Source of the DNA: Dillenia suffruticosa
Taxonomy: Eukaryota > Streptophyta > Magnoliopsida > Dilleniales > Dilleniaceae
Assembly: GCA_033439265.1 (NCBI GenBank)
Contig: JAVTVX010000016.1
Location: 3,108,501 to 3,172,500 of the forward strand
DNA length: 64,000 bases
Direction: 5' to 3'
In this document: positions 1-64,000 of the stretch, piece after piece
Layout: each line of letters begins with the position of its first letter
How positions within the stretch are numbered: the first letter of the stretch is position 1
Notes under the pieces: model-generated
Database searches by the model: none
Told to the model about the DNA's origin: nothing
The model's input: the letters and a program-made list of their open reading frames with translations, nothing else
Made by a program: the position numbers and the translations under genes

Positions 1-821
1 AATTTATTTCCAACTATTGCTAGTACAAATTACTTACTATTTAAGAAGAATTCACATAAAGTAAATCACAATATAATATTTTAGCCATTAAAATTGAGTT
101 GGTTTGTTGAATTCTTATTTTATTAGAATACTAATTAAAGAACAGCATTGCACTACCAAATATATGCGAAAGAATAGTTTGCGTGCATATTAATATTTGA
201 TAATAAAATTTTGATGGAGTCAATCTGAGTGTTATGATGATGCAGATGATGATGTTGTCATTGGTAATACTACAATCGTCCAACACCAATTCAACAAACG
301 TTTCATTGGAAGTCTAGCTTTACACTTTTGCTTGGACACGCACCAATTCCGGTTAGGAGGTGTGAAATTATGTCAAAATAAGATAAGTACACGTATTAAT
401 CAAGAGAAAGGGATATATGAGAAAACTTGAATAATGATTATAAATCAAGATATGAATTATCTAGACATGATACAGATAGTACGATAAAAGCATGATTGGT
501 CCATTCAGGATTCTACGTGTTTGGAAGCATCGTTGCATTTACAGTAAAAAAGAACGCAGTTGAATCGCGGGTTAGAAGGTTTACTAAAAAATCACGGTTC
601 AATCGTACCAACCGGTGGTTCGATTATTTAGAACGGTTGAATCATGTTAACTAGTGGTCCAATTACTTAGACGATATTTTATTCAAAATGATCTGTTTTT
701 CCTTCAAATAACGGTCCAACCACAGTCCAACTGTGGCACTATACAGTTCTGATAACAATGTTTTCATTATTTGTAACTTTATAATTTATAAATACCTTTT
801 CACACATAATGCTTGTGCGTG

Positions 822-893
822 CGCCGTTGCCGGGGATCGAGCCCGGGTCACCTACGTGACAGGCAGGAATACTCACCACTGTACTACAACGAC
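822..893 (-). tRNA. tRNA-Asp(GTC): tRNA-Asp(GTC), divergent left-edge copy
   Basis: The anticodon is GTC and the cloverleaf can form. Compared with the array consensus it has T13C, C40T (G30:U40 wobble), C44T and T54C. T54 is a conserved B-box and T-loop base. The TTTT tract after the gene is absent, and the next one is about 130 nt on, so normal 3' processing is doubtful. Confidence 0.75.
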
Positions 894-1778
894 TTGATTG
901 ACAGAAAGCATATATTACATTACCACAAAAGTGATAGAAATAGGATGCAAATCAAAAATTTATTTCCAACTATTGCTCGTACAAATTACTTACTATTTAA
1001 GAAGAATTCATATAAAGTAAATAACAATATAACATTTTAGCCATTAAAATTGAGTTGGTTTGTTGAATTCTTCTTATATTACAATACTAATAAAAGAACC
1101 GCATTGCACTTCCAAATATATGTAGAAGTATAGTTTGGGTGCATATTAATATTTGATAATAAAATTTTTGATGGAGTCAATTTGAGTGCAATGATGATGC
1201 GGATGACGAAGTTGTCATTGGTAATACTACAATTGTCCAACACCAATTCAACAAACGTTTTATTGGAATTCAAGATTTACACTTTGATGTGGACACGTGC
1301 CAATTCCAGTTAGGCAAGGTGAGATTATGGCAATGTACGATAAATACCCATATTAATCGAGAGAAAGGGATATATAAAAATACTTGAATAATAATTATAA
1401 AACAAGATATGAATCATCTCGATATAATAGAGATAGTAAGATAAAAGCATGATTGGTCCACTCCGAGTTCAATGTGCTAGGAGGCATCATTGCATTTACA
1501 TTAAAAAGGAATGCGGTTTAAACAAGGGTCAGGCGGTTTCTTAAAAAATCTCGGTTGAATTGGGCAAACCGGTGGTTCAATTATATGTAACGGTTGAATC
1601 GTGTTAACCGTTCGTTCAATTACTTAAACGATATTTTCTTCAAACTGATCGGTTTTTCCATTTGATGACGGTATGACCACAGTCCAACTGTGGCACTTTA
1701 CAGTTCTGATAACAACGTTTTCATTATTTGTAACTTTATAATTTATAAATACCTTTTCACACATAATGCTTGTGTGTG

Positions 1779-1850
1779 CGCCGTTGCCGGGGATCGAACC
1801 CGTGTCGCTTGCGTGACAGGCAGGAATACTCACCACTATAATACAACGAC
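1779..1850 (-). tRNA. tRNA-Asp(GTC): tRNA-Asp(GTC), degraded left-edge copy
   Basis: The anticodon is GTC. Changes are G10T (in the A box and D stem), G42A (mismatch with C28) and C49A (mismatch with G65). The nearby TTTT is lost, with the next T run about 230 nt downstream. Probably not a working gene. Confidence 0.65.
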
Positions 1851-2635
1851 TTGATTGACAGAATGCATACAACACCTAACCGTAAAAGTGATAGAAATAG
1901 GATCAAAATCAAAAATATATTTCCAAATATTGCTAGTAAAATTACTTACTGTTTAAGAAGAATTCATATAAAGCACATCATACTATCATATTTTAGCCAT
2001 TAAAACAAAGTTGGTTTGTTGGATTCTTCTTATATTATAATACTAATAAATGAACCGCACTACATTACCAAAAATATATAGAAGCACAGTTTGGGTGCAT
2101 ATAAATATTTGATCATAAAATTTTGATGGAGTCAATTTGAGTGTTATCATGATGCGGATGATGATGTTGTTATTGGTAATACTACAATTATCCAACACCA
2201 ATTCAAAAAATGTTTCATTGGCATTCAAGCTTCACGCTTGGGCATGGACACGCACCAATTCCAGTTAGGCAGTATGAGATTATGACAAAGTACGATAAAT
2301 ACTCATTTTAATCAAGAGAAAGGGATATATGAGAAAACTTGCAAACTGATTATAAATCAAGATATAAATTATCTACATATGAAACAGATAGTACGATAAA
2401 AGAATGATTGGTCCACTCATGACTCTATGTGTTTGGAAGCGTCATTGCATTTACAGTAAAAAAGAACGTGGTTGAATTGCGGCTAAGAAGGTTTACTAAA
2501 AATTCACGATTCAATTGTACCAACCGGTGGTTCAATTATTTAGAATGGTTGAATCATGTTAACTAGTGGTCCAATTACTTAGACGATATTTTATTCAAAC
2601 TGATATGTCTTTCCTTCAGATAACGGTCCAACCAC

Positions 2636-2651
2636 GGCAGGAATACTCACC
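2636..2651 (-). pseudogene. 16-nt tRNA-Asp remnant in a collapsed unit
   Basis: Bases 2636-2651 match the D-arm to anticodon-stem part of the tRNA. On the left they join the spacer just after its ACCACGG motif. On the right they join the spacer at CAGTGTGAG, which normally lies about 500 bp further on. About 573 bp of a unit is therefore missing and the tRNA scrap remains as filler between two deletion joints. Confidence 0.8.
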
Positions 2652-3115
2652 CAGTGTGAGATTATGACAAAGTACGATAAAAACAGATATTAATCAAGAG
2701 AAAGGGATATATGAGAAAACTTGAATATTGATTATAAATCAAGATATGAATTATCTAGACATGAAACAGATAGTACGATAAAAGAATGATTGTTCCACTC
2801 ATGACTCTATGTGTCTGGTAGCGTCATTGCATTTACTGTAAAAACGAACGAAGTTGAATTGCAGCTAAGAAGGTTTACTAAAAAATCACGGTTCAATCGT
2901 ACCAACCGGTGGTCCAATTATTTAGAACGGTTGGATCATGTTAACTAGTGGTCCAATTACTTAGACGATGTTTTATTCAAATTGATCTATTTTTCCTTCA
3001 GATAACGGTCCAACCACGGTCCAGCTGCGGCACTATATAGTTCTGATAACACTGTATTCATTATTTGCGACTTAATAATTCATAAATACTTTTTCACACA
3101 AAATACCTGTGTGTG
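2652..3115. repeat. Truncated array unit (spacer half only)
   Basis: This stretch is the second half of a normal spacer, from the CAGTGTGAG motif to the trailer of the next tRNA. Its first half and its tRNA are lost, giving the single long tRNA-to-tRNA distance of 1337 bp. Confidence 0.8.
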
Positions 3116-3187
3116 CGCCGTTGCCGGGGATCGAACCCGTGTCGCTTGCGTGACAGGCAGGAATACTCACCACTATACTACAATGAC
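3116..3187 (-). tRNA. tRNA-Asp(GTC): tRNA-Asp(GTC), degraded copy
   Basis: Shares G42A and C49A with the copy at 1779, and also has G4A, which breaks the G4:C69 acceptor pair. Anticodon GTC, A box and the T4 terminator are intact. Confidence 0.7.
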
Positions 3188-4057: not shown

Positions 4058-4069
4058 TACCTGTGTGTG

Positions 4070-9756: not shown

Positions 9757-9828
9757 CGCCGTTGCCGGGGATCGAACCCGGGTCGATTGCGTGACAGGTA
9801 GGAATACTCACCACTATACTACAACGAC
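9757..9828 (-). tRNA. tRNA-Asp(GTC): tRNA-Asp(GTC) with broken anticodon stem
   Basis: G30A, G42A and G43T leave only two of five anticodon-stem pairs. Acceptor, T arm, both promoter boxes and the GTC triplet are intact. It could be transcribed but probably does not fold as a stable tRNA. Confidence 0.65.
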
Positions 9829-13650: not shown

Positions 13651-14534
13651 TTGATTGACAGAAAGCATACATTACATTACCGCAAAAGTGATAGAAATAG
13701 GATCAAAATAAAAAATATATTTCCAAATATTGCTAGTACAAATTACTTACTATTTAAGAAGAATTCATATAAAGCAGATCATAATATCATATTTTAGCCA
13801 TTAAAACTTAGTTGGTTTGTTGGATTCTTCTTATATTATAATACTTATAAATGAACCGCATTCCATTACCAAAAGTATATAGAAGTACAGTTTGGGTGCA
13901 TATAAATATTTGATCATAAAATTTTGGTGGAGTCAATTTGAGTGATATCATGATGTTGATGATGATGTTGTTATTGGTAATACTACAATTATCCAACACC
14001 AATTCAAAAAATGTTTCATTGGAATTCAAGCTTCACGCTTTGGCATGGACACGCACCAATTCCAGTTAGGCAGTGTGAGATTATGACAAAGTACGATAAA
14101 AACACATATTAATCAAGAGAAAGGGATATATGAGAAAACTTGAATATTGATTATAAATCAAGATATGAATTATCTAGACATGAAACATATAGTACGATAA
14201 AAGAATGATTGCTCCACTCATGACTGTTTGTGTTTGGAAGCGTCATTGCATTTCCAGTAAAAAAGAACGTGGTTGAATTGTAGCTAAGAAGGTTTACTAA
14301 AAAATCACGGTTCAATCGTACCAACCGGTGGTCTAATTATTTAGAACGGTTGAATCATGTTAACTAGTGGTCCAATTACTTAGACGATGTTTTATTCAAA
14401 CTGATCTGTTTTTCCTTCAGATAACGGTCCAACCACGGTCCAACTGCGGCACTATATAGTTCTGATAACATTGTATTCATTATTTGCGACTTAATAATTC
14501 ATAAATACTTTTTCACGCAAAATACCTGTGTGTG

Positions 14535-14606
14535 CGCCGTTGCCGGGGATCGAACCCGGGTCGCCTGCGTGACAGGCAGGAATACTCACCACTATACTAC
14601 AACGAC
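14535..14606 (-). tRNA. tRNA-Asp(GTC): tRNA-Asp(GTC)
   Basis: Identical to the consensus copy. Confidence 0.95.
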
Positions 14607-15562: not shown

Positions 15563-16419
15563 TTGATTGACAGAAAGCATACATTACATTACCGCAAAAG
15601 TGATAGAAATAGGATCAAAATCAAAATTATATTTCCAAATATTGCTAGTACAAATTACTTACTATTTAAGAAGAATTCATATAAAGCAGATCATAATATC
15701 ATATTTTAGCAATTAAAACTGAGTTGGTTTGTTAGATTCTTCTTATATTATAATACTAATAAATGAACCGCACTACATTACCAAAAATATATAGAAGTAC
15801 AGTTTGGGTGCATATAAATATTTGATCATAAAATTTTGATGGAGTCAATTTGAGTGATATCATGATGCGGATGATGATGTTGTTATTGGTAATACTACAA
15901 TTATCCAACACCAATTCAAAAAATGTTTCATTGGAATTCAAGCTTCACGCTTTGGCATGGACACGCACCAATTCCAGTTAGGCAATGTGAGATTATGACA
16001 AAGTACGATAAAAACTCATGTTAATCAAGAGAAAGGGATATATGAGAAAACTTGAATATTGATTATAAATCAAGATATGAATTATCTAGACATGAAACAT
16101 ATAGTACGATAAAAGAATGATTGCTCCACTCATGACTGTTTGTGTTTGGAAGCGTCATTGTATTTACAGTAAAAAAGAACGTGGTTGAATTGCGGCTAAG
16201 AAGGATTACTAAAAAATCACGGTTCAATCGTACCAACCGGTGGTCCAATTATTTAGAACGGTTGAATCATGTTACTTAGACGATGTTTTATTCAAACTGA
16301 TCTGTTTTTCCTTTAGATAACGGTCCAACTGTAGCACTATATAGTTCTGATAACACTGTATTCATTCTTTGCGACTTAATAATTCATAAATACTTTTTCA
16401 CACAAAATACCTGTGTGTG

Positions 16420-16491
16420 CGCCGTTGCCGGGGATCGAACCCGGGTCGCCTGCGTGACAGGCAGGAATACTCACCACTATACTACAACGAC
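16420..16491 (-). tRNA. tRNA-Asp(GTC): tRNA-Asp(GTC)
   Basis: Identical to the consensus copy; 929 bp from both neighbours. Confidence 0.95.
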
Positions 16492-17348
16492 TTGATTGAC
16501 AGAAAGCATACATTACATTACCGTAAAAGTGATAGAAATAGGATCAAAATCAAAATTATATTTCCAAATATTGCTAGTACAAATTACTTACTATTTAAGA
16601 AGAATTCATATAAAGCAGATCATAATATCATATTTTAGCAATTAAAACTGAGTTGGTTTGTTAGATTCTTCTTATATTATAATACTAATAAATGAACCGC
16701 ACTACATTACCAAAAATATATAGAAGTACAGTTTGGGTGCATATAAATATTTGATCATAAAATTTTGATGGAGTCAATTTGAGTGATATCATGATGCGGA
16801 TGATGATGTTGTTATTGGTAATACTACAATTATCCAACACCAATTCAAAAAATGTTTCATTGGAATTCAAGCTTCACGCTTTGGCATGGACACGCACCAA
16901 TTCCAGTTAGGCAATGTGAGATTATGACAAAGTACGATAAAAACTCATGTTTATCAAGAGAAAGGGATATATGAGAAAACTTGAATATTGATTATAAATC
17001 ATGATATGAATTATCTAGACATGAAACATATAGTACGATAAAAGAATGATTGCTCCACTCATGACTGTTTGTGTTTGGAAGCGTCATTGTATTTACAGTA
17101 AAAAAGAACGTGGTTGAATTGCGGCTAAGAAGGATTACTAAAAAATCACGGTTCAATCGTACCAACCGGTGGTCCAATTATTTAGAACGGTTGAATCATG
17201 TTACTTAGACGATGTTTTATTCAAACTGATCTGTTTTTCCTTTAGATAACGGTCCAACTGCAGCACTATATAGTTCTGATAACAGTGTATTCATTCTTTG
17301 CGACTTAATAATTCATAAATACTTTTTCACACAAAATACCTGTGTGTG

Positions 17349-17420
17349 CGCCGTTGCCGGGGATCGAACCCGGGTCGCCTGCGTGACAGGCAGGAATACT
17401 CAACACTATACTACAACGAC
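17349..17420 (-). tRNA. tRNA-Asp(GTC): tRNA-Asp(GTC), G19 lost
   Basis: Single change G19T. G19 pairs with C56 to hold the D and T loops together and is also part of the A box, so both folding and transcription may suffer. Confidence 0.82.
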
Positions 17421-18304
17421 TAGATTGACAGAAAGCATACATTACATTACCGCAAAAGTGATAGAAATAGGATCAAAATCAAAATTATATTTCCAAATAT
17501 TGCTAGTACAAATTACTTACTATTTAAGAAGAATTCATATAAAGCAGATCATAATATCATATTTTAGCAATTAAAACTGAGTTGGTTTGTTAGATTCTTC
17601 TTATATTATAATACTAATAAATGAACCGCACTACATTACCAAAAATATATAGAAGTACAATTTGGGTGCATATAAATATTTGATCATAAAATTTTGATGG
17701 AGTCAATTTGAGTGATATCATGATGCGGATGATGATGTTGTTATTGGTAATACTACAATTTTCCAACACCAATTCAAAAAATGTTTCATTGGAATTAAAG
17801 CTTCACGCTTTGGCCTGGACACGCACCAATTCCAGTTAGGCAGTGTGAGATTATGACAAAGTACGATAAATACTCATATTAATCAAGAGAAAGGGATATT
17901 TGAGAAAACTTGAATACTGATTATAAATCAAGATATGAATTATCTAGACATGAAACAGATAGTATGATAAAGGAATGATTGGTCCACTCATGACTCTATG
18001 TGTTTGGAAGCGTCACTGCATTTACAATAAAAAAGAACGTGGTTGAATTGCGGGTAAGAAGGTTTACTAAAAAATCACGGTTCAATCGTACCAATCGGTG
18101 GTCCAATTATTTAGAACGGTTGAATCATGTTAACTAGTGGTCCAATTACTTAGACGATGTTTTATTCAAACTGATCTGTTTTTCCTTCAGACAACGGTCC
18201 AACCACGGTCCAACTGCGGCACTATAAAGTTCTCATAACACTGTATTCATTATTTGCGACTTAATAATTCATAAATACTTTTTCACACAAAATACCTGTG
18301 TGTG

Positions 18305-18376
18305 CGCCGTTGCCGGGGATTGAACCCGGGGCGCCTGCGTGACCGGCAGGAATACTCACCATTATACTACAACGAC
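18305..18376 (-). pseudogene. tRNA-Asp pseudogene, U33 lost
   Basis: Four changes: G15A, T33G, A46C and G57A. U33 forms the anticodon-loop turn and is nearly universal; G15 forms the Levitt pair with C48. The GTC triplet is still present. Likely nonfunctional although the stems pair. Confidence 0.72.
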
Positions 18377-22199: not shown

Positions 22200-23083
22200 T
22201 TGATTGACAGAAAGCATACATTACATTACCGCAAAAGTGATAGAAATAGGATCAAAATCAAAAATATATTTCCAAATATAGCTAGTACAAATTACTTACT
22301 ATTTAAGAAGAATTCATATAAAGCAGATCATAATATCATATTTTAGCCATTAAAACTGAGTTGGTTAGTTGGATTCTTCTTATATTATAATACTAATAAA
22401 TGAACCGCACTACATTACCAAAAATATATAGAAGTACAGTTTGGGTGCATATAAATATTTGATAATAAAATTTTGACGGAGTCAATTTGAGTGATATCAT
22501 GATGCGGATGATGATGTTGTTATTGGTAATACTACAATTATCCAACACCAATTCAAAAAATGTTTCATTGGAATTCAAGCTTCACGCTTTGGCATGGACA
22601 CGCACCAATTCCAGTTAGGCAGTGTGAGATTATGACAAAGTACGATAAATACTCATATTAATCAAGAGAAAGGGATATTTGAGAAAACTTGAATACTGAT
22701 TATAAATCAAGATATGAATTATCTAGACATGAAACAGATAGTACGATAAAGGAATGATTGGTCCACTCATGACTCTATGTGTTTGGAAGCATCACTGCAT
22801 TTACAATAAAAAAGAACGTGGTTGAATTGCGGGTAAGAAGGTTTACTAAAAAATCACGGTTCAATCATACCAATCGGTGGTCCAATTATTTTGAACGGTT
22901 GAATCATGTTAACTAGTGGTCCAATTACTTAGACGATGTTTTATTCAAACTGATCTGTTTTTCCTTCAGACAACGGTCCCACCACGGTCCAACTGCGGCA
23001 CTATAAAGTTCTCATAACACTGTATTCATTATTTGCAACTTAATAATTCAAAAATACTTTTTCACACAAAATACCTGTGTGTG

Positions 23084-23154
23084 CGCCGTTGCCGGGATCG
23101 AACCCGGGTCGCCTGCGTGACAGGCAGGAATACTCACCACTATACTACAACGAC
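23084..23154 (-). tRNA. tRNA-Asp(GTC): tRNA-Asp(GTC), 71 nt, T-arm deletion
   Basis: One C of the run at positions 60-63 is missing, so the T loop or T stem is one base short and the B box is shifted. Everything else is consensus. Confidence 0.75.
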
Positions 23155-41139: not shown

Positions 41140-41211
41140 CGCCGTTGCCGGGGATCGAACCCGGGTCGCCTGCGTGACAGGCAGGAATACTCACCACTAT
41201 ACTACAACGAC
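41140..41211 (-). tRNA. tRNA-Asp(GTC): tRNA-Asp(GTC)
   Basis: Consensus 72 nt; trailer starts with T as in 26876, 34474 and 54492. Confidence 0.95.
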
Positions 41212-42095
41212 TTGATTGACAGAAAGCATACATTACATTGCCGCAAAAGTGATAGAAATAGGATCAAAATCAAAAATATATTTCCAAATATTGCTAGTAC
41301 AAATTACTTACTATTTAAGAAGAATTCATATAAAGCAGATCATAATATCATATTTTAGCAATTAAAACTGAGTTGGTTTGTTGGATTCTTCTTATATTAT
41401 AATACTAATAAATGAACCGCACTACATTACCAAAAATATATAGAAGTACAGTTTGGGTGCATATAAATATTTGATAATAAAATTTTGATGGAGTCAATTT
41501 GAGTGATATCATGATGCGGATGATGATGTTGTTACTGGTAATACTACAATTATCCAATACCAATTCAAAAAATGTTTCATTGGAATTCAAGCTTCACGCT
41601 TTGGCATGGACACGCACCAATTCCAGTTAGGCAGTGTGAGATTATGACAAAGTACGATAAATACTCATATTAATCAAGAGAAATGGATATTTGAGAAAAC
41701 TTGAATACTGATTATAAATCAAGATATGAATTATCTAGACATGAAACAGATAGTACGATAAAGGAATGATTGGTCCACTCATGACTCTATGTGTTTGGAA
41801 GTGTCACTGCATTTACAATAAAAAAGAATGTGGTTGAATTGCGGGTAAGAAGGTTTACTAAAAAATCACGGTTCAATCGTACCAATCGGTGGTCCAATTA
41901 TTTAGAACGGTTGAATCATGTTAACTAGTGGTCCAATTACTTAGACGATGTTTTATTCAAACTGATCTGTTTTTCCTTCAGACAACGGTCCAACCACGGT
42001 CCAACTGCGGCACTATAAAGTTCTCATAACACTGTATTCATTATTTGCGACTTAATAATTCATAAATACTTTTTCACACAAAATACCTGTGTGTG

Positions 42096-42167
42096 CGCCG
42101 TTGCCGGGGATCGAACCCGGGTCGCCTGCGTGACAGGCAGGAATACTCACCACTATACTACAACGAC
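42096..42167 (-). tRNA. tRNA-Asp(GTC): tRNA-Asp(GTC)
   Basis: Identical to the consensus copy. Confidence 0.95.
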
Positions 42168-43051
42168 TTGATTGACAGAAAGCATACATTACATTACCGC
42201 AAAAGTGATAGAAATAGGATCAAACTCGAAAATATATTTCCAAATATTGCTAGTACAAATTACTTACTATTTAAGAAGAATTCATATAAAGCAGATCATA
42301 ATATCATATTTTAGCCATTAAAACTGAGTTGGTTAGTTGGATTCTTCTTATATTATAATACTAATAAATGAACCGCACTACATTACCAAAAATATATAGA
42401 AGTACAGTTTGGGTGCATATAAATATTTGATCATAAAATTTTGATGGAGTCAATTTGAGTGATATCATGATGCGGATGATGATGTTGTTATTGGTAATAC
42501 TACAATTATCCAACACCAATTCAAAAAATGTTTCATTGGAAATCGAGCTTCACGCTTTGGCATGGACACGCACCAATTCCAGTTAGGCAGTGTGAGATTA
42601 TGACAAAGTACGATAAAAACAGATATTTATCAAGAGAAAGGGATATATGAGAAAACTTGAATATTGATTATAAATCAAGATATGAATTATCTAGACATGA
42701 AACAGATAGTACGATAAAAGAATGATTGCTCCACTCATGACTGTTTGTGTTTGGAAGCGTCATTGCATTTACAGTAAAAAAGAACGTGGTTGAATTGCGG
42801 CTAAGAAGGTTTACTAAAAAATCACGGTTCAATCGTACCAACCGGTGGTCCAATTATTTAGAACGGTTGAATCATGTTAACTAGTGGTCCAATTACTTAG
42901 ACGATGTTTTATTCAAACTGATCTGTTTTTCCTTCAGATAACGGTCCAACCACGGTCCAACTGCGGCCCTATATAGTTCTGATAACATTGTATTCATTAT
43001 TTGCGACTTAATAATCCATAAATACTTTTTCACACAAAATACCTGAGTGTG

Positions 43052-43123
43052 CGCCGTTGCCGGTGATCGAACCCGGGTCGCCTGCGTGACAGGCAGGAAT
43101 ACTCACCACTATACTACAACGAC
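43052..43123 (-). tRNA. tRNA-Asp(GTC): tRNA-Asp(GTC), C61A subfamily
   Basis: C61A breaks the nearly universal G53:C61 pair that closes the T loop and changes the end of the B box. Five copies share it, together with an A in the trailer (CTGAGTG on the plus strand). Confidence 0.83.
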
Positions 43124-44008
43124 TTGATTGACAGAAAGCATACATTACATTGCCGGAAAAGTGATAGAAATAGGATCAAAATCAAAAATATATTTCCAAA
43201 TATTGCTAGTACAAATTACTTACTATTTAAGAAGAATTCATATAAAGCAGATCATAATATCATATTTTAGCAATTAAAACTGAGTTGGTTTGTTGGATTC
43301 TTCTTATATTATAATACTAATAAATGAACCGCACTACATTACCAAAAATATATAGAAGTACAGTTTGGGTGCATATAAATATTTGATCATAAAAGTTTGA
43401 TGGAGTCAATTTGAGTGATATCATGATGCTGATGATGATGTTGTTATTGGTAATACTACAATTATCCAACACCAATTCAAAAAATGTTTCATTAGAATTC
43501 AAGCTTCACGCTTTGGCATGGACACGCACCAATTCCAGTTAGGCAGTGTGAGATTATGACAAAGTACGATAAATACTCATATTAATCTAGAGAAAGGGAT
43601 ATTTGAGAAAACTTCAATACTGATTATAAATCAAGATATGAATTATCTAGACATGAAACAGATAGTACGATAAAGGAATGATGGGTCCACTCATGACTCT
43701 ATGTGTTTGGAAGTGTCACTGCATTTACAGTAAAAAAGAACGTGGTTGAGTTGCGGCTAAGAAGGTTTACTAAAAAATCACGGTTCAATCGTACCAACCG
43801 GTGGTCTAATTATTTAGAACGGTTGAATCATGTTAACGAGTGGTCCAATTACTTAGACGATGTTTTATTCAAACTGATCACTTTTTCCTTTCAGATAACG
43901 GTCCAACCACGGTCCAACTACAGCACTATATAGTTCTGATAACACTGTATTCATTCTTTGCGACTTAATAATTCATAAATACTTTTTCACACAAAATACC
44001 TGTGTGTG

Positions 44009-44080
44009 CGCCGTTGCCGGGGATCGAACCCGGGTCGCCTGCGTGACAGGCAGGAATACTCACCACTATACTACAACGAC
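44009..44080 (-). tRNA. tRNA-Asp(GTC): tRNA-Asp(GTC)
   Basis: Identical to the consensus copy. Confidence 0.95.
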
Positions 44081-44964
44081 TTGATTGACAAAAAGCATAC
44101 ATTACATTGCCGCCAAAGTGATAGAAATAGGATCAAAATCAAAAATATATTTCCAAATATAGCTAGTTCAAATTACTTACTATTTAAGAAGAATTCATAT
44201 AAAGCAGATCATAATATCATATTTTAGCCATTAAAACTGAGTTGGTTAGTTGGATTCTTCTTATATTATAATACTAATAAATGAACCGCACTACATTACC
44301 AAAAATATATAGAAGTACAGTTTGGGTGCATATAAATATTTGATAATAAAATTTTGACGGAGTCAATTTGAGTGATATCATGATGCGGATGATGATGTTG
44401 TTATTGGTAATACTACAATTATCCAACACCAATTCAAAAAATGTTTCATTGGAATTCAAGCTTCACGCTTTGGCATGGACACGCACCAATTCCAGTTAGG
44501 CAGTGTGAGATTATGACAAAGTACGATAAATACTCATATTAATCAAGAGAAAGGGATATTTGAGAAAACTTGAATACTGATTATAAATCAAGATATGAAT
44601 TATCTAGACATGAAACAGATAGTACGATAAAGGAATGATTGGTCCACTCATGACTCTATGTGTTTGGAAGCATCACTGCATTTACAATAAAAAAGAACGT
44701 GGTTGAATTGCGGGTAAGAAGGTTTACTAAAAAATCACGGTTCAATCATACCAATCGGTGGTCCAATTATTTAGAACGGTTGAATCATGTTAACTAGTGG
44801 TCCAATTACTTAGACGATGTTTTATTCAAACTGATCTGTTTTTCCTTCAGACAACGGTCCCACCACGGTCCAACTGCGGCACTATAAAGTTCTCATAACA
44901 CTGTATTCATTATTTGCGACTTAATAATTCATAAATACTTTTTCACACAAAATACCTGTGTGTG

Positions 44965-45036
44965 CGCCGTTGCCGGGGATCGAACCCGGGTCGCCTGCGT
45001 GACAGGCAGGAATACTCACCACTATACTACAACGAC
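44965..45036 (-). tRNA. tRNA-Asp(GTC): tRNA-Asp(GTC)
   Basis: Identical to the consensus copy. Confidence 0.95.
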
Positions 45037-45992: not shown

Positions 45993-46876
45993 TTGATTGA
46001 CAGAAAGCATACATTACATTACCGCAAAAGTGATAGAAATAGGATCAAAATCAAAAATATATTTCCAAATATTGCTAGTACAAATTACTTACTATTTAAG
46101 AAGAATTCATATAAAGCAGATCATAATATCATATTTTAGCCATTAAAACTGAGTTGGTTAGTTGGATTCTTCTTATATTATAATACTAATAAATGAACCG
46201 CACTACATTACCAAAAATATATAGAAGTACAGTTTGGGTGCATATAAATATTTGATCATAAAATTTTGATGGAGTCAATTTGAGTGATATCATGATGCGG
46301 ATGATGATGTTGTTATTGGTAATACTACAATTATCCAACACCAATTCAAAAAATGTTTCATTGGAAATCGAGCTTCACGCTTTGGCATGGACACGGACCA
46401 ATTCCAGTTAGGCAGTGTGAGATTATGACAAAGTACGATAAAAACAGATATTTATCAAGAGAAAGGGATATATGAGAAAACTTGAATATTGATTATAAAT
46501 CAAGATATGAATTATCTAGACATGAAACAGATAGTACGATAAAAGAATGATTGCTCCACTCATGACTGTTTGTGTTTGGAAGCGTCATTGCATTTACAGT
46601 AAAAAAGAACGTGGTTGAATTGCGGCTAAGAAGGTTTACTAAAAAATCACGGTTCAATCGTACCAACCGGTGGTCCAATTATTTAGAACGGTTGAATCAT
46701 GTTAACTAGTGGTCCAATTACTTAGACGATGTTTTATTCAAACTGATCTGTTTTTCCTTCAGATAACGGTCCAACCACGGTCCAACTACGGCCCTATATA
46801 GTTCTGATAACATTGTATTCATTATTTGCGACTTAATAATCCATAAATACTTTTTCACACAAAATACCTGAGTGTG

Positions 46877-46945
46877 CGCCGTTGCCGGTGATCGAACCCG
46901 GGTCGCCTGCGTGACAGGCAGGAATACTCACCACTATACTACGAC
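46877..46945 (-). pseudogene. tRNA-Asp pseudogene, acceptor deletion (69 nt)
   Basis: Belongs to the C61A subfamily and has also lost three bases at the 5' acceptor strand/position 8 region, so a seven-pair acceptor helix cannot form. The anticodon arm is intact. Confidence 0.78.
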
Positions 46946-48858: not shown

Positions 48859-49742
48859 TTGATAGACAGAAAGCATACATTACATTACCGCAAAAGTGAT
48901 AGAAATAGGATCAAAATCAAAAATATATTTCCAAATATTGCTAGTACAAATTACTTACTATTTAAGAAGAATTCATACAAAGCAGATCATAATATCATAT
49001 TTTAGCCATTAAAACTGAGTTGGTTAGTTGGATTCTTCTTATATTATAATACTAATAAATGAACCGCACTACATTACCAAAAATATATAGAAGTACAGTT
49101 TGGGTGCATATAAATATTTGATAATAAAATTTTGACGGAGTCAATTTGAGTGATATCATGATGCGGATGATGATGTTGTTATTGGTAATACTACAATTAT
49201 CCAACACCAATTCAAAAAATGTTTCATTGGAATTCAAGCTTCACGCTTTGGCATGGACACGCACCAATTCCAGTTAGGCAGTGTGAGATTATGACAAAGT
49301 ACGATAAATACTCATATTAATCAAGAGAAAGGGATATTTGAGAAAACTTGAATACTGATTATAAATCAAGATATGAATTATCTAGACATGAAACAGATAG
49401 TACGATAAAGGAATGATTGGTCCACTCATGACTCTATGTGTTTGGAAGCATCACTGCATTTACAATAAAAAAGAACGTGGTTGAATTGCGGGTAAGATGG
49501 TTTACTAAAAAATCACGGTTCAATCGTACCAACCGGTGGTCCAATTATTTAGAACGGTTGAATCATATTAACTAGTGGTCCAATTACTTAGACGATGTTT
49601 TATTCAAACTGATCTGTTTTTCCTTCAGATAACGGTCCAACCACGGTCCAACTACGGCCCTATATAGTTCTGATAACATTGTATTCATTATTTGCGACTT
49701 AAAAATTCATAAATACTTTTTCACACAAAATACCTGTGTGTG

Positions 49743-50769: not shown

Positions 50770-51653
50770 TTGATTGACAGAAAGCATACATTACATTACC
50801 GCAAAAGTGATAGAAATAGGATCAAAATCAAAAATATATTTCCAAATATTGCTAGTACAAATTACTTACTATTTAAGAAGAATTCATATAAAGCAGATCA
50901 TAATATCATATTTTAGCCATTAAAACTGAGTTGGTTAGTTGGATTCTTCTTATATTATAATACTAATAAATGAACCGCACTACATTACCAAAAATATATA
51001 GAAGTACAGTTTGGGTGCATATAAATATTTGATCATAAAATTTTGATGGAGTCAATTTGAGTGATATCATGATGCGGATGATGATGTTGTTATTGGTAAT
51101 ACTACAATTATCCAACACCAATTCAAAAAATGTTTCATTGGAAATCGAGCTTCACGCTTTGGCATGGACACGCACCAATTCCAGTTAGGCAGTGTGAGAT
51201 TATGACAAAGTACGATAAAAACAGATATTTATCAAGAGAAAGGGATATATGAGAAAACTTGAATATTGATTATAAATCAAGATATGAATTATCTAGACAT
51301 GAAACAGATAGTACGATAAAAGAATGATTGCTCCACTCATGACTGTTTGTGTTTGGAAGCGTCATTGCATTTACAGTAAAAAAGAACGTGGTTGAATTGC
51401 GGCTAAGAAGGTTTACTAAAAAATCACGGTTCAATCGTACCAACCGGTGGTCCAATTATTTAGAACGGTTGAATCATGTTAACTACTGGTCCAATTACTT
51501 AGACGATGTTTTATTCAAACTGATCTGTTTTTCCTTCAGATAACGGTCCAACCACGGTCCAACTGCGGCCCTATATAGTTCTGATAACATTGTATTCATT
51601 ATTTGCGACTTAATAATCCATAAATACTTTTTCACACAAAATACCTGAGTGTG

Positions 51654-51725
51654 CGCCGTTGCCGGTGATCGAACCCGGGTCGCCTGCGTGACAGGCAGGA
51701 ATACTCACCACTATACTACAACGAC
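51654..51725 (-). tRNA. tRNA-Asp(GTC): tRNA-Asp(GTC), C61A subfamily
   Basis: Only C61A; block partner of 43052. Confidence 0.83.
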
Positions 51726-52610
51726 TTGATTGACAGAAAGCATACATTACATTGCCGGAAAAGTGATAGAAATAGGATCAAAATCAAAAATATATTTCCA
51801 AATATTGCTAGTACAAATTACTTACTATTTAAGAAGAATTCATATAAAGCAGATCATAATATCATATTTTAGCAATTAAAACTGAGTTGGTTTGTTGGAT
51901 TCTTCTTATATTATAATACTAATAAATGAACCGCACTACATTACCAAAAATATATAGAAGTACAGTTTGGGTGCATATAAATATTTGATCATAAAAGTTT
52001 GATGGAGTCAATTTGAGTGATATCATGATGCTGATGATGATGTTGTTATTGGTAATACTACAATTATCCAACACCAATTCAAAAAATGTTTCATTAGAAT
52101 TCAAGCTTCACGCTTTGGCATGGACACGCACCAATTCCAGTTAGGCAGTGTGAGATTATGACAAAGTACGATAAATACTCATATTAATCAAGAGAAAGGG
52201 ATATTTGAGAAAACTTCAATACTGATTATAAATCAAGATATGAATTATCTAGACATGAAACAGATAGTACGATAAAGGAATGATGGGTCCACTCATGACT
52301 CTATGTGTTCGGAAGTGTCACTGCATTTACAGTAAAAAAGAACGTGGTTGAGTTGCGGATAAGAAGGTTTACTAAAAAATCACTGTTCAATCGTACCAAC
52401 CGGTGGTCCAAATATTTAGAACGGTTGAATCATGTTAACGAGTGGTCCAATTACTTAGACGATGTTTTATTCAAACTGATCTCTTTTTCCTTTCAGATAA
52501 CGGTCCAACCACGGTCCAACTACAGCACTATATAGTTCTGATAACACTGTATTCATTCTTTGCGACTTAATAATTCATAAATACTTTTTCACACAAAATA
52601 CCTGTGTGTG

Positions 52611-52682
52611 CGCCGTTGCCGGGGATCGAACCCGGGTCGCCTGCGTGACAGGCAGGAATACTCACCACTATACTACAACGAC
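52611..52682 (-). tRNA. tRNA-Asp(GTC): tRNA-Asp(GTC)
   Basis: Identical to the consensus copy; block partner of 44009. Confidence 0.95.
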
Positions 52683-53551
52683 TTGATTGACAAAAAGCAT
52701 ACATTACATTGCCGCAAAAGTGATAGAAATAGGATCAAAATCAAAAATATATTTCCAAATATAGCTAGTTCAAATTACTTACTATTTAAGAAGAATTCAT
52801 ATAAAGCAGATCATAATATCATATTTTAGCCATTAAAACTGAGTTGGTTAGTTGGATTCTTCTTATATTATAATACTAATAAATGAACCGCACTACATTA
52901 CCAAAAATATATAGAAGTACAGTTTGGGTGCATATAAATATTTGATAATAAAATTTTGACGGAGTCAATTTGAGTGATATCATGATGCGGATGATGATGT
53001 TGTTATTGGTAATACTACAATTATCCAACACCAATTCAAAAAATGTTTCATTGGAATTCAAGCTTCACGCTTTGGCATGGACACGCACCAATTCCAGTTA
53101 GGCAGTGTGAGATTATGACAAAGTACGATAAATACTCATATTAATCAAGAGAAAGGGATATTTGAGAAAACTTGAATACTGATTATAAATCAAGATATGA
53201 ATTATCTAGACATGAAACAGATAGTACGATAAAGGAATGATTGGTCCACTCATGACTCTATGTGTTTGGAAGCATCACTGCATTTACAATAAAAAAGAAC
53301 GTGGTTGAATTGCGGGTAAGAAGGTTTACTAAAAAATCACGGTTCAATCATACCAATCGGTGGTCCAATTATTTAGAACGGTTGAATCATGTTAACTAGT
53401 GGTCCAATTACTTAGACGATGTTTTATTCAAACTTGATCTGTTTTTCCTTCAGACAACGGTCCCACCACGGTCCAACTGCGGCAACACTGTATTCATTAT
53501 TTGCGACTTAATAATTCATAAATACTTTTTCACACAAAATACCTGTGTGTG

Positions 53552-53623
53552 CGCCGTTGCCGGGGATCGAACCCGGGTCGCCTGCGTGACTGGCAGGAAT
53601 ACTCACCACTATACTACAACGAC
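53552..53623 (-). tRNA. tRNA-Asp(GTC): tRNA-Asp(GTC), U33A
   Basis: Single change T33A removes the nearly universal U33 of the anticodon-loop turn. The fold is otherwise perfect, so it may be made but decode poorly. Confidence 0.8.
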
Positions 53624-54491
53624 TTGATTGACAGAAAGCATACATTACATTGCCGCAAAAGTGATAGAAATAGGATCAAAATCAAAAATATATTTCCAAA
53701 TATTGCTAGTACAAATTACTTACTATTTAAGAAGAATTCATATAAAGCAGATCATAATATCATATTTTAGCAATTAAAACTGAGTTGGTTTGTTGGATTC
53801 TTCTTATATTATAATACTAATAAATGAACCGCACTACATTACCAAAAATATATAGAAGTACAGTTTGGGTGCATATAAATATTTGATCATAAAATTTTGA
53901 TGGAGTCAATTTGAGTGATATCATGATGCGGATGATGATGTTGTTATTGGTAATACTACAATTATCCAACACCAATTCAAAAAATGTTTCATTGGAAATC
54001 GAGCTTCACGCTTTGGCATGGACACGCACCAATTCCAGTTAGGCAGTGTGAGATTATGACAAAGTACGATAAATACTCATATTAATCAAGAGAAAGGGAT
54101 ATTTGAGAAAACTTGAATACTGATTATAAATCAAGATATGAATTATCTAGACATGAAACAGATAGTACGATAAAGGAATGATGGGTCCACTCATGACTCT
54201 ATGTGTTTGGATGCGTCACTGCATTTATAGTAAAAGAGAACGTGGTTGAGTTGTGGCTAAGAAGGTTTACTAAAAAATCACGGTTCAATCGTACCAACCG
54301 GTGGTCCAATTATTTAGAACGGTTGAATCATGTTACTTAGATGATGTTTTATTCAAACTGATCTGTTTTTCCTTTAGCTAACGGTCCAACCACGGTCCAA
54401 CTGCGGCACTATATAGTTCTGATAACACTGTATTCATTATTTGCGACTTAATAATTCATAAATACTTTTTCACACAAAATACCTGTGTGTA

Positions 54492-54563
54492 CGCCGTTGC
54501 CGGGGATCGAACCCGGGTCGCCTGCGTGACAGGCAGGAATACTCACCACTATACTACAACGAC
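54492..54563 (-). tRNA. tRNA-Asp(GTC): tRNA-Asp(GTC)
   Basis: Consensus 72 nt; trailer starts with T. Confidence 0.95.
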
Positions 54564-55447
54564 TTGATTGACAGAAAGCATACATTACATTGCCGCAAAA
54601 GTGATAGAAATAGGATCAAAATCAAAAATATATTTCCAAATATTGCTAGTACAAATTACTTACTATTTAAGAAGAATTCATATAAATCAGATCATAATAT
54701 CATATTTTAGCAATTAAAACTGAGTTGGTTTGTTGGATTCTTCTTATATTATAATACTAATAAATGAACCGCACTACATTACCAAAAATATATAGAAGTA
54801 CAGTTTGGGTGCATATAAATATTTGATAATAAAATTTTGATGGAGTCAATTTGAGTGATATCATGATGCGGATGATGATGTTGTTATTGGTAATACTACA
54901 ATTATCCAATACCAATTCAAAAAATGTTTCATTGGAATTCAAGCTTCACGCTTTGGCATGGACACGCACCAATTCCAGTTAGGCAGTGTGAGATTATGAC
55001 AAAGTACGATAAATACTCATATTAATCAAGAGAAATGGATATTTGAGAAAACTTGAATACTGATTATAAATCAAGATATGAATTATCTAGACATGAAACA
55101 GATAGTACGATAAAGGAATGATTGGTCCACTCATGACTCTATGTGTTTGGAAGCGTCACTGCATTTACAATAAAAAAGAATGTGGTTGAATTGCGGGTAA
55201 GAAGGTTTACTAAAAAATCACGGTTCAATCGTACCAATCGGTGGTCCAATTATTTAGAACGGTTGAATCATGTTAACTAGTGGTCCAATTACTTAGACGA
55301 TGTTTTATTCAAACTGATCTGTTTTTCCTTCAGACAACGGTCCAACCACGGTCCAACTGCGGCACTATAAAGTTCTCATAACACTGTATTCATTATTTGC
55401 GACTTAATAATTCATAAATACTTTTTCACACAAAATACCTGTGTGTG

Positions 55448-55519
55448 CGCCGTTGCCGGGGATCGAACCCGGGTCGCCTGCGTGACAGGCAGGAATACTC
55501 ACCACTATACTACAACGAC
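55448..55519 (-). tRNA. tRNA-Asp(GTC): tRNA-Asp(GTC)
   Basis: Identical to the consensus copy. Confidence 0.95.
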
Positions 55520-56403
55520 TTGATTGACAGAAAGCATACATTACATTACCGCAAAAGTGATAGAAATAGGATCAAAATCAAAAATATATTTCCAAATATT
55601 GCTAGTACAAATTACTTACTATTTAAGAAGAATTCATATAAAGCAGATCATAATATCATATTTTAGCCATTAAAACTGAGTTGGTTAGTTGGATTCTTCT
55701 TATATTATAATACTAATAAATGAACCGCACTACATTACCAAAAATATATAGAAGTACAGTTTGGGTGCATATAAATATTTGATCATAAAATTTTGATGGA
55801 GTCAATTTGAGTGATATCATGATGCGGATGATGATGTTGTTATTGGTAATACTACAATTATCCAACACCAATTCAAAAAATGTTTCATTGGAAATCGAGC
55901 TTCACGCTTTGGCATGGACACGCACCAATTCCAGTTAGGCAGTGTGAGATTATGACAAAGTACGATAAAAACAGATATTTATCAAGAGAAAGGGATATAT
56001 GAGAAAACTTGAATATTGATTATAAATCAAGATATGAATTATCTAAACATGAAACAGATAGTACGATAAAAGAATGATTGCTCCACTCATGACTGTTTGT
56101 GTTTGGAAGCGTCATTGCATTTACAGTAAAAAAGAACGTGGTTGAATTGCGGCTAAGAAGGTTTACTAAAAAATCACGGTTCAATCGTACCAACCGGTGG
56201 TCCAATTATTTAGAACGGTTGAATCATGTTAACTAGTGGTCCAATTACTTAGACAATGTTTTATTCAAACTGATCTGTTTTTCCTTTAGACAACGGTCCA
56301 ACCACGGTCCAACTGCGGCCCTATATAGTTCTGATAACATTGTATTCATTATTTGCGACTTAATAATCCATAAATACTTTTTCACACAAAATACCTGAGT
56401 GTG

Positions 56404-56475
56404 CGCCGTTGCCGGTGATCGAACCCGGGTCGCCTGCGTGACAGGCAGGAATACTCACCACTATACTACAACGAC
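56404..56475 (-). tRNA. tRNA-Asp(GTC): tRNA-Asp(GTC), C61A subfamily
   Basis: Only C61A, with the subfamily trailer. Confidence 0.83.
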
Positions 56476-61180: not shown

Positions 61181-61252
61181 CGCCGTTGCCGGGGATCGAA
61201 CCCGGGTCGCCTGCGTGACAGGCAGGAATACTCACCACTATACTACAACGAC
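61181..61252 (-). tRNA. tRNA-Asp(GTC): tRNA-Asp(GTC)
   Basis: Identical to the consensus copy. Confidence 0.95.
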
Positions 61253-62120
61253 TTGATTGACAGAAAGCATACATTACATTACCGCAAAAGTGATAGAAAT
61301 AGGATCAAAATCAAAAATATATTTCCAAATATTGCTAGTACAAATTACTTACTATTTAAGAAGAATTCATATAAAGCAGATCATAATATCATATTTTAGC
61401 CATTAAAACTGAGTTGGTTAGTTGGATTCTTCTTATATTATAATACTAATAAATGAACCGCACTACATTACCAAAAATATATAGAAGTACAGTTTGGGTG
61501 CATATAAATATTTGATCATAAAATTTTGATGGAGTCAATTTGAGTGATATCATGATGCGGATGATGATGTTGTTATTGGTAATACTACAATTATCCAACA
61601 CCAATTCAAAAAATGTTTCATTGGAAATCGAGCTTCACGCTTTGGCATGGACACGCACCAATTCCAGTTAGGCAGTGTGAGATTATGACAAAGTACGATA
61701 AAAACAGATATTTATCAACAGAAAGGGATATATGAGAAAACTTGAATATTGATTATAAATCAAGATATGAATTATCTAGACGTGAAACAGATAGTACGAT
61801 AAAGGAATGATGGGTCCACTCATGACTCTATGTGTTTGGAAGCGTCACTGCATTTACAGTAAAAAAGAACGTGGTTGAGTTGCGGCTAAGAAGGTTTACT
61901 AAAAAATCACGGTTCAATCGTACCAACCGGTGGTCCAATTATTTAGAACGGTTGAATCATGTTACTTAGACGATGTTTTATTCAAACTGATCTGTTTTTC
62001 GTTTAGATAACGGTCCAACCACGGTCCAACTGCGGCACTATATAGTTCTGATAACACTGTATTCATTATTTGCGACTTCATAATTCATAAATACTTTTTC
62101 ACACAAAAGACCTGTGTGTG

Positions 62121-62192
62121 CGCCATTGCCGGGGATCGAACCCGGGTCGCCTGCGTGACAGGCAGGAATACTCAACACTATACTACAACGAC
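62121..62192 (-). tRNA. tRNA-Asp(GTC): tRNA-Asp(GTC), G19 lost
   Basis: G19T (loss of the G19:C56 contact and A-box change) and C69T (G4:U69 wobble). Confidence 0.8.
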
Positions 62193-63076
62193 TTGATTGA
62201 CAGAAAGCAAACATTACATTGCCGCAAAAGTGATAGAAATAGGATCAAAATCAAAAATATATTTCCAAATATTGCTAGTACAAATTACTTACTATTTAAG
62301 AAGAATTCATATAAAGCAGATCATAATATCATATTTTAGCAATTAAAACTGAGTTGGTTTGTTGGATTCTTCTTATATTATAATACTAATAAATGAACCG
62401 CACTACATTACCAAAAATATATAGAAGTACAGTTTGGGTGCATATAAATATTTGATAATAAAATTTTGATGGAGTCAATTTGAGTGATATCACGATGCGG
62501 ATGATGATGTTGTTATTGGTAATACAACAATTATCCAACACCAATTCAAAAAATGTTTCATTGGAATTCAAGCTTCACGCTTTGGCATGGACACGCACCA
62601 ATTCCAGTTAGGCAGTGTGAGATTATGACAAAGTACGATAAATACTCATATTAATCAAGAGAAAGGGATATTTGAGAAAACTTGAATACTGATTATAAAT
62701 CAAGATATGAATTATCTAGACATGAAACAGATAGTACGATAAAGGAACGATTGGTCCACTCATGACTCTATGTGTTTGGAAGCATCACTGCATTTACAAT
62801 AAAAAAGAACGTGGTTGAATTGCGGGTAAGAAGGTTTACTAAAAAATCACGGTTCAATCATACCAATCGGTGGTCCAATTATTTAGAACGGTTGAATCAT
62901 GTTAACTAGTGGTCCAATTACTTAGACGATGTTTTATTCAAACTGATCTGTTTTTCCTTCAGACAACGGTCCAACCACGGTCCAACTGCGGCACTATAAA
63001 GTTCTCATAACACTGTATTCATTATTTGTGACTTAATAATTCATAAATACTTTTTCACACAAAATACCTGTGTGTG

Positions 63077-63148
63077 CGCCGTTGCCGGGGATCGAACCCG
63101 GGTCGCCTGCGTGACAGGCAGGAATACTCACCACTATACTACAACGAC
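63077..63148 (-). tRNA. tRNA-Asp(GTC): tRNA-Asp(GTC)
   Basis: Identical to the consensus copy; last gene in the window, with the array continuing to base 64000. Confidence 0.95.
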
Positions 63149-64000
63149 TTGATTGACAGAAAGCATATATTACATTACCGCAAAAGTGATAGAAATAGGA
63201 TCAAAATCAAAAATATATTTCCAAATATTATTAGTACAAATTACTTACTATTTAAAAAGAATTCATATAAAGCAGATCATAATATCATATTTTAGCCATT
63301 AAAACTGAGTTGGTTAGTTGGATTCTTCTTATATTATAATACTAATAAATGAACCGCACACCATTACCAAAAATATATAGAAGTACAGTTTGGGTGCATA
63401 TAAATATTTGATCATAAAATTTTGATGGAGTCAATTTGAGTGATATCATGATGCGGATGATGATGTTGTTATTGGTAATACTACAATTATCCAACACCAA
63501 TTCAAAAAATGTTTCATTGGAAATCGAGCTTCACGCTTTGGCATGGACACGCACCAATTCCAGTTAGGCAGTGTGAGATTATGACAAAGTACGATAAAAA
63601 CAGATATTTATCAAGAGAAAGGGATATATGAGAAAACTTGAATATTGATTATAAATCAAGATATGAATTATCTAGACATGAAACAGATAGTACGATAAAA
63701 AAATGATTGCTCCACTCATGACTGTTTGTGTTTGGAAGCGTCATTGCATTTACAATAAAAAAGAACGTGGTTGAATTGCGGCTAAGAAGGTTTACTAAAA
63801 AATCACGGTTCAATCGTACCAACCGGTGGTCCAATTATTTAGAACGGTTGAATCATGTTAACTAGTGGTCCAATTACTTAGACGATGTTTTATTCAAACT
63901 GATCTGTTTTTCCTTCAGATAACGGTCCAACCACGGTCCAACTGCGGCCCTATATAGTTCTGATAACATTGTATTCATTATTTGCGACTTAATAATCCAT

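Follow-up and report, generated by a model that had tools for sequence, protein, structure and literature searches.

The 64-kb stretch of DNA analysed here, referred to as the window, carries 66 tRNA-Asp loci arranged head to tail, all on the minus strand, when the predictions of ARAGORN and Rfam RF00005 are united. Each method finds 65 of them; ARAGORN misses the locus at 9757-9828 and Rfam that at 18304-18376. Chance is no explanation of the array, since the 65 RF00005 matches are regularly spaced and have E-values between 6e-11 and 0.006. The modal distance from one tRNA gene to the next is 956 bp, which is found exactly in 24 of the 65 intervals (range 921-1337), and a consensus unit of 956 bp covers 63,986 of the 64,000 bases, on the minus strand only; the 14 unmatched bases lie at 2638-2651. 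Both ends of the window are unit sequence (1-893 and 63149-64000, with 89.5% and 96.9% identity to the consensus, respectively), and thus the array reaches both of them. The first-pass annotation had counted 66 same-strand copies at about 956 bp per gene, which is borne out; its further claim that the array passes both ends would be compatible with the terminal unit sequence. TRF was run with a longest period of 500 and therefore lists three local repeats but not the 956-bp period.

By the rule that neighbouring genes lie less than 1 kb apart (PMC12652284), the array is a plant tandem tRNA gene cluster with a run of 2 plus 64 genes; 64 of the 65 gaps between adjacent loci are below 1 kb, while loci 2 and 3 are separated by 1264 bp. 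At one gene per 956 bp it does not reach three tRNA genes per kb, the detection threshold of another survey (PMC11700998), which its authors call stricter than that of others. The array suggests that surveys of the latter kind overlook arrays with long units.

Apart from the tRNA genes, the window contains only two open frames of at least 80 codons, with 83 and 84 codons (standard code; frames lying wholly within the window). When the unit at 13651-14606 is compared with Rfam at E ≤1, just two sub-threshold matches accompany the tRNA, and both overlap it. An exact 28-base tRNA pattern has no match in collections of genome contigs and viral contigs, nor has an exact 24-base spacer pattern in viral contigs, which says little of collections devoid of plant nuclear genomes.

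The tRNA gene copies

One identical 72-mer, scoring 60.3 bits in Rfam, is common to 30 of the 66 loci. All 30 copies are followed by TTTT 13 nt downstream, match the B-box pattern and are preceded by CAA within 12 bases. Judged by their sequence, they have the properties of functional tRNA-Asp genes, namely a paired cloverleaf, the GTC anticodon, a B box and a terminator, in agreement with the earlier count of at least 30 identical, intact copies. Taken over the 66 loci, CAA precedes the tRNA in every case, TTTT follows it in 64, and the B-box pattern is matched in 55. The T29:A41 pair, which had been named before, is present in each of the 65 copies examined, the copy with the 3-base deletion being left out of this count. 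In 25 of the 66 copies, one or more stem pairs are broken or an indel is present, and the copy with the CTC anticodon (Table 1) is likely a pseudogene. The hairpin 3' of the tRNA is short, and tRNA plus trailer fold no better than shuffled sequences (z -0.32).

Table 1. Coordinates of the array, of selected units and blocks, and of features within them
Feature	Position	Strand	Remarks
Tandem array	1-64000	-	65 complete intervals among 66 tRNA-Asp loci, plus partial end units; consensus unit 956 bp
Unit U01	1-893	-	Partial; 10.5% from consensus
Unit U02	894-1850	-	14.5% from consensus
Unit U03	1851-3187	-	1337 bp; local 382-bp tandem duplication (2270-3019)
Unit U15	13651-14606	-	Example of a full 956-bp unit; tRNA gene, then 884 bp spacer
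Primer-binding-site-like 12-mer	14459-14470	-	2 of 12 bases mismatched; 45 occurrences in the window; a lead only
Majority tRNA-Asp(GTC) gene	14535-14606	-	Example of 30/66 identical copies; cloverleaf fully paired, no intron, T29:A41
tRNA copy with CTC anticodon	20214-20286	-	Called tRNA-Glu by ARAGORN; altered B box
tRNA copy with 3-base deletion	46876-46945	-	Deletion near 5' end; 70-base call, Rfam 32.8 bits
Block U24-U26	22200-25050	-	Units 0.2-0.3% from U31-U33; coordinates from unit boundaries
Block U31-U33	28841-31692	-	Partner of U24-U26
Block U42-U45	39317-43123	-	Units 0.3-0.7% from U56-U59
Block U56-U59	52683-56475	-	Partner of U42-U45
Block U45-U47	42168-45036	-	Units 0.2-0.7% from U54-U56
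Block U54-U56	50770-53623	-	Partner of U45-U47

Divergence, exchange and probable methylation of the units

The units differ from each other by 3.5-3.9% in the mean. Among the 2080 unit pairs, the closest differs by 0.2% and seven lie at 0.2-0.3%, which is what might be seen if few real units had been multiplied by the assembler. Such an artefact is given hardly any probability; the mean difference, the 215 variants that occur as singletons in the spacer (63 units) and the diverged units at one end all argue against it. The concern, raised at first pass, is reduced rather than removed, with even the closest pair still 0.2% apart and the mean at 3.9%.

Near-identical runs of two to four neighbouring units recur at a constant offset, in total 37 unit pairs in 14 runs. 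Shuffled unit orders give a mean of 3.6 such pairs and none of 1000 reaches 37, at a distance limit of 1.35% that was chosen after the unit distances were seen. Nearby units are also more alike than distant ones (rho 0.17 in 63 units; largest value of 500 permutations, 0.12). Runs of near-identical neighbours are the mark of unequal crossing-over. With its blocks, its distance dependence and its full coverage on one strand, the array is satellite DNA in the sense of head-to-tail units homogenised by unequal exchange.

The divergence of U01 and U02, at 10-15%, may indicate that an edge of the array is near the low-coordinate end. The tRNA of U01 (821-893) has four changes and that of U02 three broken pairs; in both, TTTT is absent from the 60 bases downstream. 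The first 12 loci hold just 2 of the 30 majority copies. Edge-like units occur at this end of the window only, while tRNA variants are found throughout the array.

Transitions are 3.2 times as frequent at CG and 2.5 times as frequent at CHG as at CHH, whereas transversions are flat. Counted by sites, 25 of 38 CG and 20 of 45 CHG have transitions, versus 46 of 202 CHH; CHC is intermediate (12 of 36 sites). The CHG excess is absent in singletons alone (p 0.25) and inside the tRNA (3 of 11 sites versus 5 of 17 CHH). The excess, strong at CG and moderate at CHG, would be the footprint of plant cytosine methylation, and the array is, as far as its mutation pattern tells, probably methylated in the germ line. 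Methylation need not mean silence, since the Arabidopsis Ser-Tyr-Tyr (SYY) tRNA cluster is expressed in the root tip despite being highly methylated, and the authors of that work consider methylation as likely not the silencer of that cluster (PMC12308677).

Selection and origin of the array

The tRNA copies evolve near-neutrally, almost as the spacer does, and structure-preserving changes are not preferred. In 63 units (partial U01 being outside the alignment, U02 and U03 removed from it, indels uncounted), 48 tRNA changes are seen where 63.4 would be expected from spacer rates, the parsimony counts being inflated by recombination between units. At a ratio of 0.76 (Poisson p 0.027), some selection is possible. 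Observed and expected numbers are 21 and 26.4 for stem-breaking, 6 and 13.5 for stem-preserving and 21 and 23.6 for loop changes. Taken over all 65 units, tRNA and spacer have nearly the same fraction of variable sites (0.444 and 0.445, respectively), and 11.4% of the 72-bp spacer windows match or exceed the tRNA in the number of consensus-identical copies (30 of 63). Past selection is only hinted at by the divergence profiles of the outermost units; in U02, divergence is lowest (0.04) in the first 80 bp, which hold the tRNA, while in U01 the tRNA window has 0.06 and two spacer windows are lower (0.05 and 0.03).

We consider it unlikely that the array is maintained by selection for raising the supply of tRNA-Asp, be it constantly or in particular cells. 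The 30 identical, intact copies with TTTT and CAA as well as the deficit of tRNA changes would be in line with such a role. A precedent is the Arabidopsis Ser/Tyr cluster, for which such a role in root-cap cells is proposed and for which tissue-specific reactivation and an effect of deletion are described (PMC12308677). Furthermore, one survey counts more genes for tRNA-Asp than for any other tRNA in 17 angiosperm species (PMC12652284), from which it follows that a high Asp copy number is common. On the other side stand the 25 copies with broken pairs or an indel, the lack of preferential avoidance of damaging tRNA changes, the spacer windows that equal or surpass the tRNA in consensus-identical copies, and the CG/CHG methylation footprint. 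Even if dose were the reason for the array, redundancy on this scale would leave any single copy under weak selection. The slight deficit of tRNA changes, not being aimed at structure, gives little positive support for selection on tRNA-Asp dose.

Another possibility is a pre-existing satellite which captured a tRNA gene by insertion, the tRNA being spread subsequently by homogenisation. A spacer without any open frame above 84 codons and a window consisting entirely of repeat would suit this scenario. It is, however, highly improbable, given the tRNA locus in each of the 65 intervals and in partial U01 and the pol III signals of native appearance next to the tRNA; CAA and TTTT near it would sooner point to the amplification of a working gene together with its flanks.

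In favour of a retroelement origin is the 12-mer listed in Table 1, which begins at unit position 137, one base after CA, and resembles the primer-binding site of initiator tRNA-Met type that is common in retrotransposons. A match this good (10 of 12 bases, either strand) is found in 10 of 500 spacer shuffles. The TRIM elements Cassandra and Helenus hold pol III gene sequence (5S or tRNA), as does the array, and Cassandra forms tandem arrays in plants (PMC7215508). Unlike in these elements, a polypurine tract in front of a TG-starting LTR is not found in the Asp array; of the three purine runs (≥7) on the same strand as the 12-mer, none has TG after it, and of the six on the other, wrong strand one does. 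Also, the tRNA is intact in the array. A Helenus or TRIM-type (TRIMp3) element is judged very unlikely, and this reading was not adopted.

Most probably, a tRNA-Asp(GTC) gene was amplified with its flanks into a satellite-like, methylated, mostly silent array that homogenises itself. The founder would have been a tRNA-Asp(GTC) gene of the nucleus plus some 880 bp of the non-coding DNA that flanked it, multiplied head to tail. Unequal crossing-over, involving single units or blocks of several, would hold the units similar. That many copies are intact would be due to amplification and homogenisation being recent relative to mutation, and not to close selection on each copy. Most copies would probably be silent in most tissues, like the clustered tRNA genes of Arabidopsis, while intact ones could be transcribed by RNA polymerase III whenever chromatin permits. 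Of the two initial ideas, uptake of a tRNA gene by a satellite and a means of raising dose, the satellite-like behaviour is retained, as seen from blocks, homogenisation, a diverged end and near-neutral copies; the direction of gene uptake is not, and dose is little supported. It would be quite a long shot to assume a chromosome-scale tRNA-Asp satellite of far more than 66 units, which served as a silenced reserve of a separate tRNA-Asp species, the T29:A41 form, activated in certain cells or conditions, tRNA-Asp supply thereby becoming a trait that varies individually with array length.

Large tRNA arrays pose the puzzle of why a genome should maintain so many tRNA genes that it seemingly does not use. 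The present array is a clean setting for this question, as each unit has a single gene, identical copies number in the dozens, and the T29:A41 form may set its product apart from dispersed tRNA-Asp genes. It also suggests that genome-wide tRNA counts can rise through a satellite whose copies are maybe mostly silent.

Comparison with known tRNA arrays

No Asp array with so long a unit was known to the first-pass annotation, and no tandem tRNA-Asp array is named in the titles, abstract beginnings and passages among the literature matches listed, which is no proof of absence; large plant tandem tRNA clusters as such are well documented. The Asp array behaves like a kind of repeat already known from plants, albeit one of large size and with an isotype unnamed in the literature examined. 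For S. alba, 82 first-pass tRNA-Asp predictions are given, which are not described as tandem there (PMC11700998). Single-isotype tandem arrays are also formed by the tRNA-Pro clusters of Arabidopsis and many angiosperms and by a tRNA-Ile array of maize, albeit of other amino acids and with denser spacing; they comprise 3-10 Pro genes generally, 25-27 Pro genes in Arabidopsis and 28 Ile genes in maize (PMC11700998). The tRNA-Cys cluster on Arabidopsis chromosome 5 likewise has one tRNA gene per repeat, a pseudogene at its boundary and a repeat number that varies between accessions (PMC10701932), but its 4-6 units are of about 420 bp, are 84-94% identical in the reference and overlap annotated Helitrons. 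In a survey of 50 plant species, clusters of non-identical genes range from 2 to 110 genes, and the moss 'Cpu' (taken to be Ceratodon purpureus) and others have large tandem tRNA arrays; those named for 'Cpu', in contrast to the Asp array, consist of Ile, Cys or repeats of two to three genes (PMC12652284). Outside plants, the large tRNA tandem repeat at human 1q23.3 is comparable, its copy number varying from 9 to 43 units, yet its unit is GC-rich, measures 7.3 kb and contains tRNA genes and a CTCF site (PMC4041453).

The SYY cluster on chromosome 1 of Arabidopsis thaliana has 27 units of three genes each in almost 40 kb (PMC10701932) and is not strictly regular (PMC11700998). Major copies abound in its core, its flanks are variable and richer in pseudogenes, and CG and CHG methylation predominates (PMC12308677). 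Tandem tRNA genes with many identical major copies, variants and pseudogenes are common to both arrays. A homogeneous core with variable flanks would fit the Asp array at one end, the low-coordinate one, with variants throughout and the other edge beyond the window. CG/CHG methylation has been measured in SYY, while in the Asp array it is deduced from the mutation pattern. In place of the three-gene units of SYY, the Asp array has one gene per 956-bp unit, repeated no fewer than 66 times across 64 kb or more.

Organization of the tRNA-Asp array

The window contains 66 tRNA loci, a total obtained as the union of 65 genes predicted by ARAGORN (64 Asp(GTC) and one Glu(CTC), all on the minus strand) and 65 matches to the Rfam tRNA model, each program lacking one locus of the other. 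All 66 lie on the minus strand, and the locus-to-locus interval is most often exactly 956 bp (24/65), while 32 of the remaining 41 intervals measure 953, 954, 955, 957 or 940 bp. Copy number, common orientation and spacing are thus as the first-pass annotation had given them, and its description of the tRNA by the T29:A41 base pair is likewise correct. The 956-bp consensus of the unit, which comprises the gene and its spacer, covers 63,986 of 64,000 bases, on the minus strand only, and unit sequence is present at both window ends. Certain unit lengths recur (940 bp in 8 of 65 units; 929 bp in two neighbours) and may be traces of unit duplications.

Features of the array by window coordinates
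Feature	Coordinates	Remark
Local tandem duplication, 382 bp, 2.0 copies	2270-3019	inside the third unit, U03 (1337 bp)
14 bases unmatched by the unit consensus	2638-2651	within the U03 duplication
Short spacer motifs of type ACGGTCCAACC	14307-14317, 14424-14434, 14435-14445	
Primer-binding-site-like 12-mer	14459-14470 and 44 like sites	starts at unit position 137, one base after CA
Adjacent 929-bp units	15563-16491, 16492-17420	
Asp-body copy with CTC (Glu) anticodon	20214-20286	altered B box
940-bp unit (example)	23155-24094	
39-bp repeat, two copies in one unit	49515-49592	

A single 72-base sequence is common to 30 of the 66 loci. In this majority copy the cloverleaf is complete, the anticodon is GTC and the B-box pattern is matched; CAA stands no more than 12 bases before the gene, and TTTT follows 13 bases after it. 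Upstream CAA accompanies all 66 loci, and TTTT within 40 bases downstream accompanies 64. In 25 copies a stem pair is disrupted or an indel is present. The other 41 are made up of the 30 majority copies and 11 changed elsewhere, several of them at normally invariant sites (position 33 or the D-loop G, for example) and one of them with the CTC anticodon; 30 copies can safely be called fully intact. The CTC copy is probably a pseudogene.

The window holds only two open frames of at least 80 codons (83 and 84), and in the one unit tested against Rfam no other RNA family reached threshold. The short spacer repeats are perhaps remains of an older element. Since some TRIM elements carry tRNA or 5S sequences (PMC10886601) and Cassandra occurs as tandem arrays (PMC7215508), the unit was also examined as a retroelement of this kind. 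A 12-mer resembling a primer-binding site in 10 of 12 bases, equalled in 10 of 500 shuffles, recurs in the same form at 45 places. Against this, TG follows 0/3 polypurine runs on the strand of the 12-mer and 1/6 on the other, and for lack of such a run on the same strand the unit was not assigned to these elements.

Homogenization and divergence of the units

The 65 complete units differ by 3.9% on average, or by 3.5% once U02 and U03 are left out (units being numbered from the low-coordinate end), and because of this divergence it is unlikely that the array is an artefact of assembly. Near-identical units, defined as less than 1.35% apart, a limit chosen after the distances had been seen, form runs at constant offset (e.g., U24-U26/U31-U33, U42-U45/U56-U59 and U45-U47/U54-U56); 14 runs hold 37 unit pairs, whereas shuffled unit orders average 3.6 and none of 1000 shuffles is as high. 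Likeness also rises with proximity (rho 0.17; largest value in 500 permutations, 0.12). Both observations are expected under unequal crossing-over that duplicates blocks of a few units. At the low-coordinate end, divergence from the consensus is 10.5% in the partial unit U01 and 14.5% in U02, and the two differ from each other by 13.2%; by sequence, this end looks like an old, poorly homogenized array edge, a status judged inside the window and decided only by the DNA beyond it. The least diverged window of U02 is the tRNA (0.04), while in U01 two spacer windows (0.03, 0.05) lie below the tRNA window (0.06), by which older selection on the founder gene would be only hinted at.

Base changes in genes and spacers

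Selection was assessed on 63 units (U02 and U03 dropped, partial U01 never aligned, indels uncounted), with expected tRNA changes calculated from the spacer rates of the corresponding CG, CHG, CHH and A/T contexts. The tRNA carries 48 changes versus 63.4 expected (ratio 0.76, Poisson p 0.027). Stem-preserving changes are the most depleted class (observed/expected 0.45), followed by stem-breaking (0.80) and loop changes (0.89), so that the small shortfall does not target structure. The tRNA is consensus-identical in 30 of 63 units, a count equalled or exceeded in 11.4% of 72-bp spacer windows; single tRNA copies are accordingly close to neutral now. Over all 65 units, variable sites make up 0.444 of the tRNA and 0.445 of the spacer, and variants have spread to fewer copies in the tRNA (0.86 per site versus 1.54).

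In the spacer, transitions are 3.2 times as frequent in CG and 2.5 times as frequent in CHG as in CHH, while transversions are flat. Sites with any transition number 25/38, 20/45 and 46/202, respectively (Fisher p on site counts versus CHH, 4e-7 for CG and 0.005 for CHG), CHC sites being intermediate (12/36). The CHG excess is less secure than that of CG; from singletons alone its p value is 0.25. Within the tRNA only CG stands out (11/16, versus 5/17 for CHH; CHG 3/11). A transition excess in both CG and CHG is the pattern that plant cytosine methylation would leave. It speaks for a plant origin of the DNA as well, alongside the CAA motif and the general character of plant tRNA-Asp sequences.

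Origin of the array and comparison with known clusters

The most economical account is that a tRNA-Asp gene together with its flanks would have been amplified through unequal exchange to a satellite-like array, which would be under methylation and most copies of which would probably be silent most of the time. The first-pass annotation had proposed either a satellite with an acquired tRNA gene or a raising of tRNA-Asp dose. Capture by a pre-existing satellite is separable from gene amplification only with relatives, and the presence of a tRNA locus in every one of the 65 intervals speaks against it.

For gene-plus-flank amplification, the Ser-Tyr-Tyr (SYY) cluster of Arabidopsis serves as a model. 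As described in PMC12308677, its core is rich in the major copy, its flanks are variable with pseudogenes commoner there, its methylation is predominantly CG and CHG, and it is silent in most tissues and reactivated in root-cap cells. Expression occurs despite high methylation, which counts against a simple link between methylation and silence, the authors considering methylation likely not the silencer. By this precedent, a conditional dose function of the tRNA-Asp array is kept open. In one survey, tRNA-Asp has the highest gene count of all tRNA types in 17 angiosperm species (PMC12652284).

Clustering of tRNA genes is known from other eukaryotes, such as zebrafish and stickleback (PMC2888827), and tandem clusters are already known in plants. 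Cys clusters have been reported (PMC10701932), one moss has large clusters, and in a survey of 50 species clusters contain up to 110 genes (PMC12652284). The searched portions of the tRNA-array literature name no tandem tRNA-Asp array; the cluster rule of one survey, three genes per kb (PMC11700998), would miss an array with a 956-bp unit. The Dillenia array is large for a single isotype, and it differs in being of Asp from the arrays of Arabidopsis (27 Pro and 27 Tyr-Tyr-Ser repeats) and maize (28 Ile) described in the same survey (PMC11700998).
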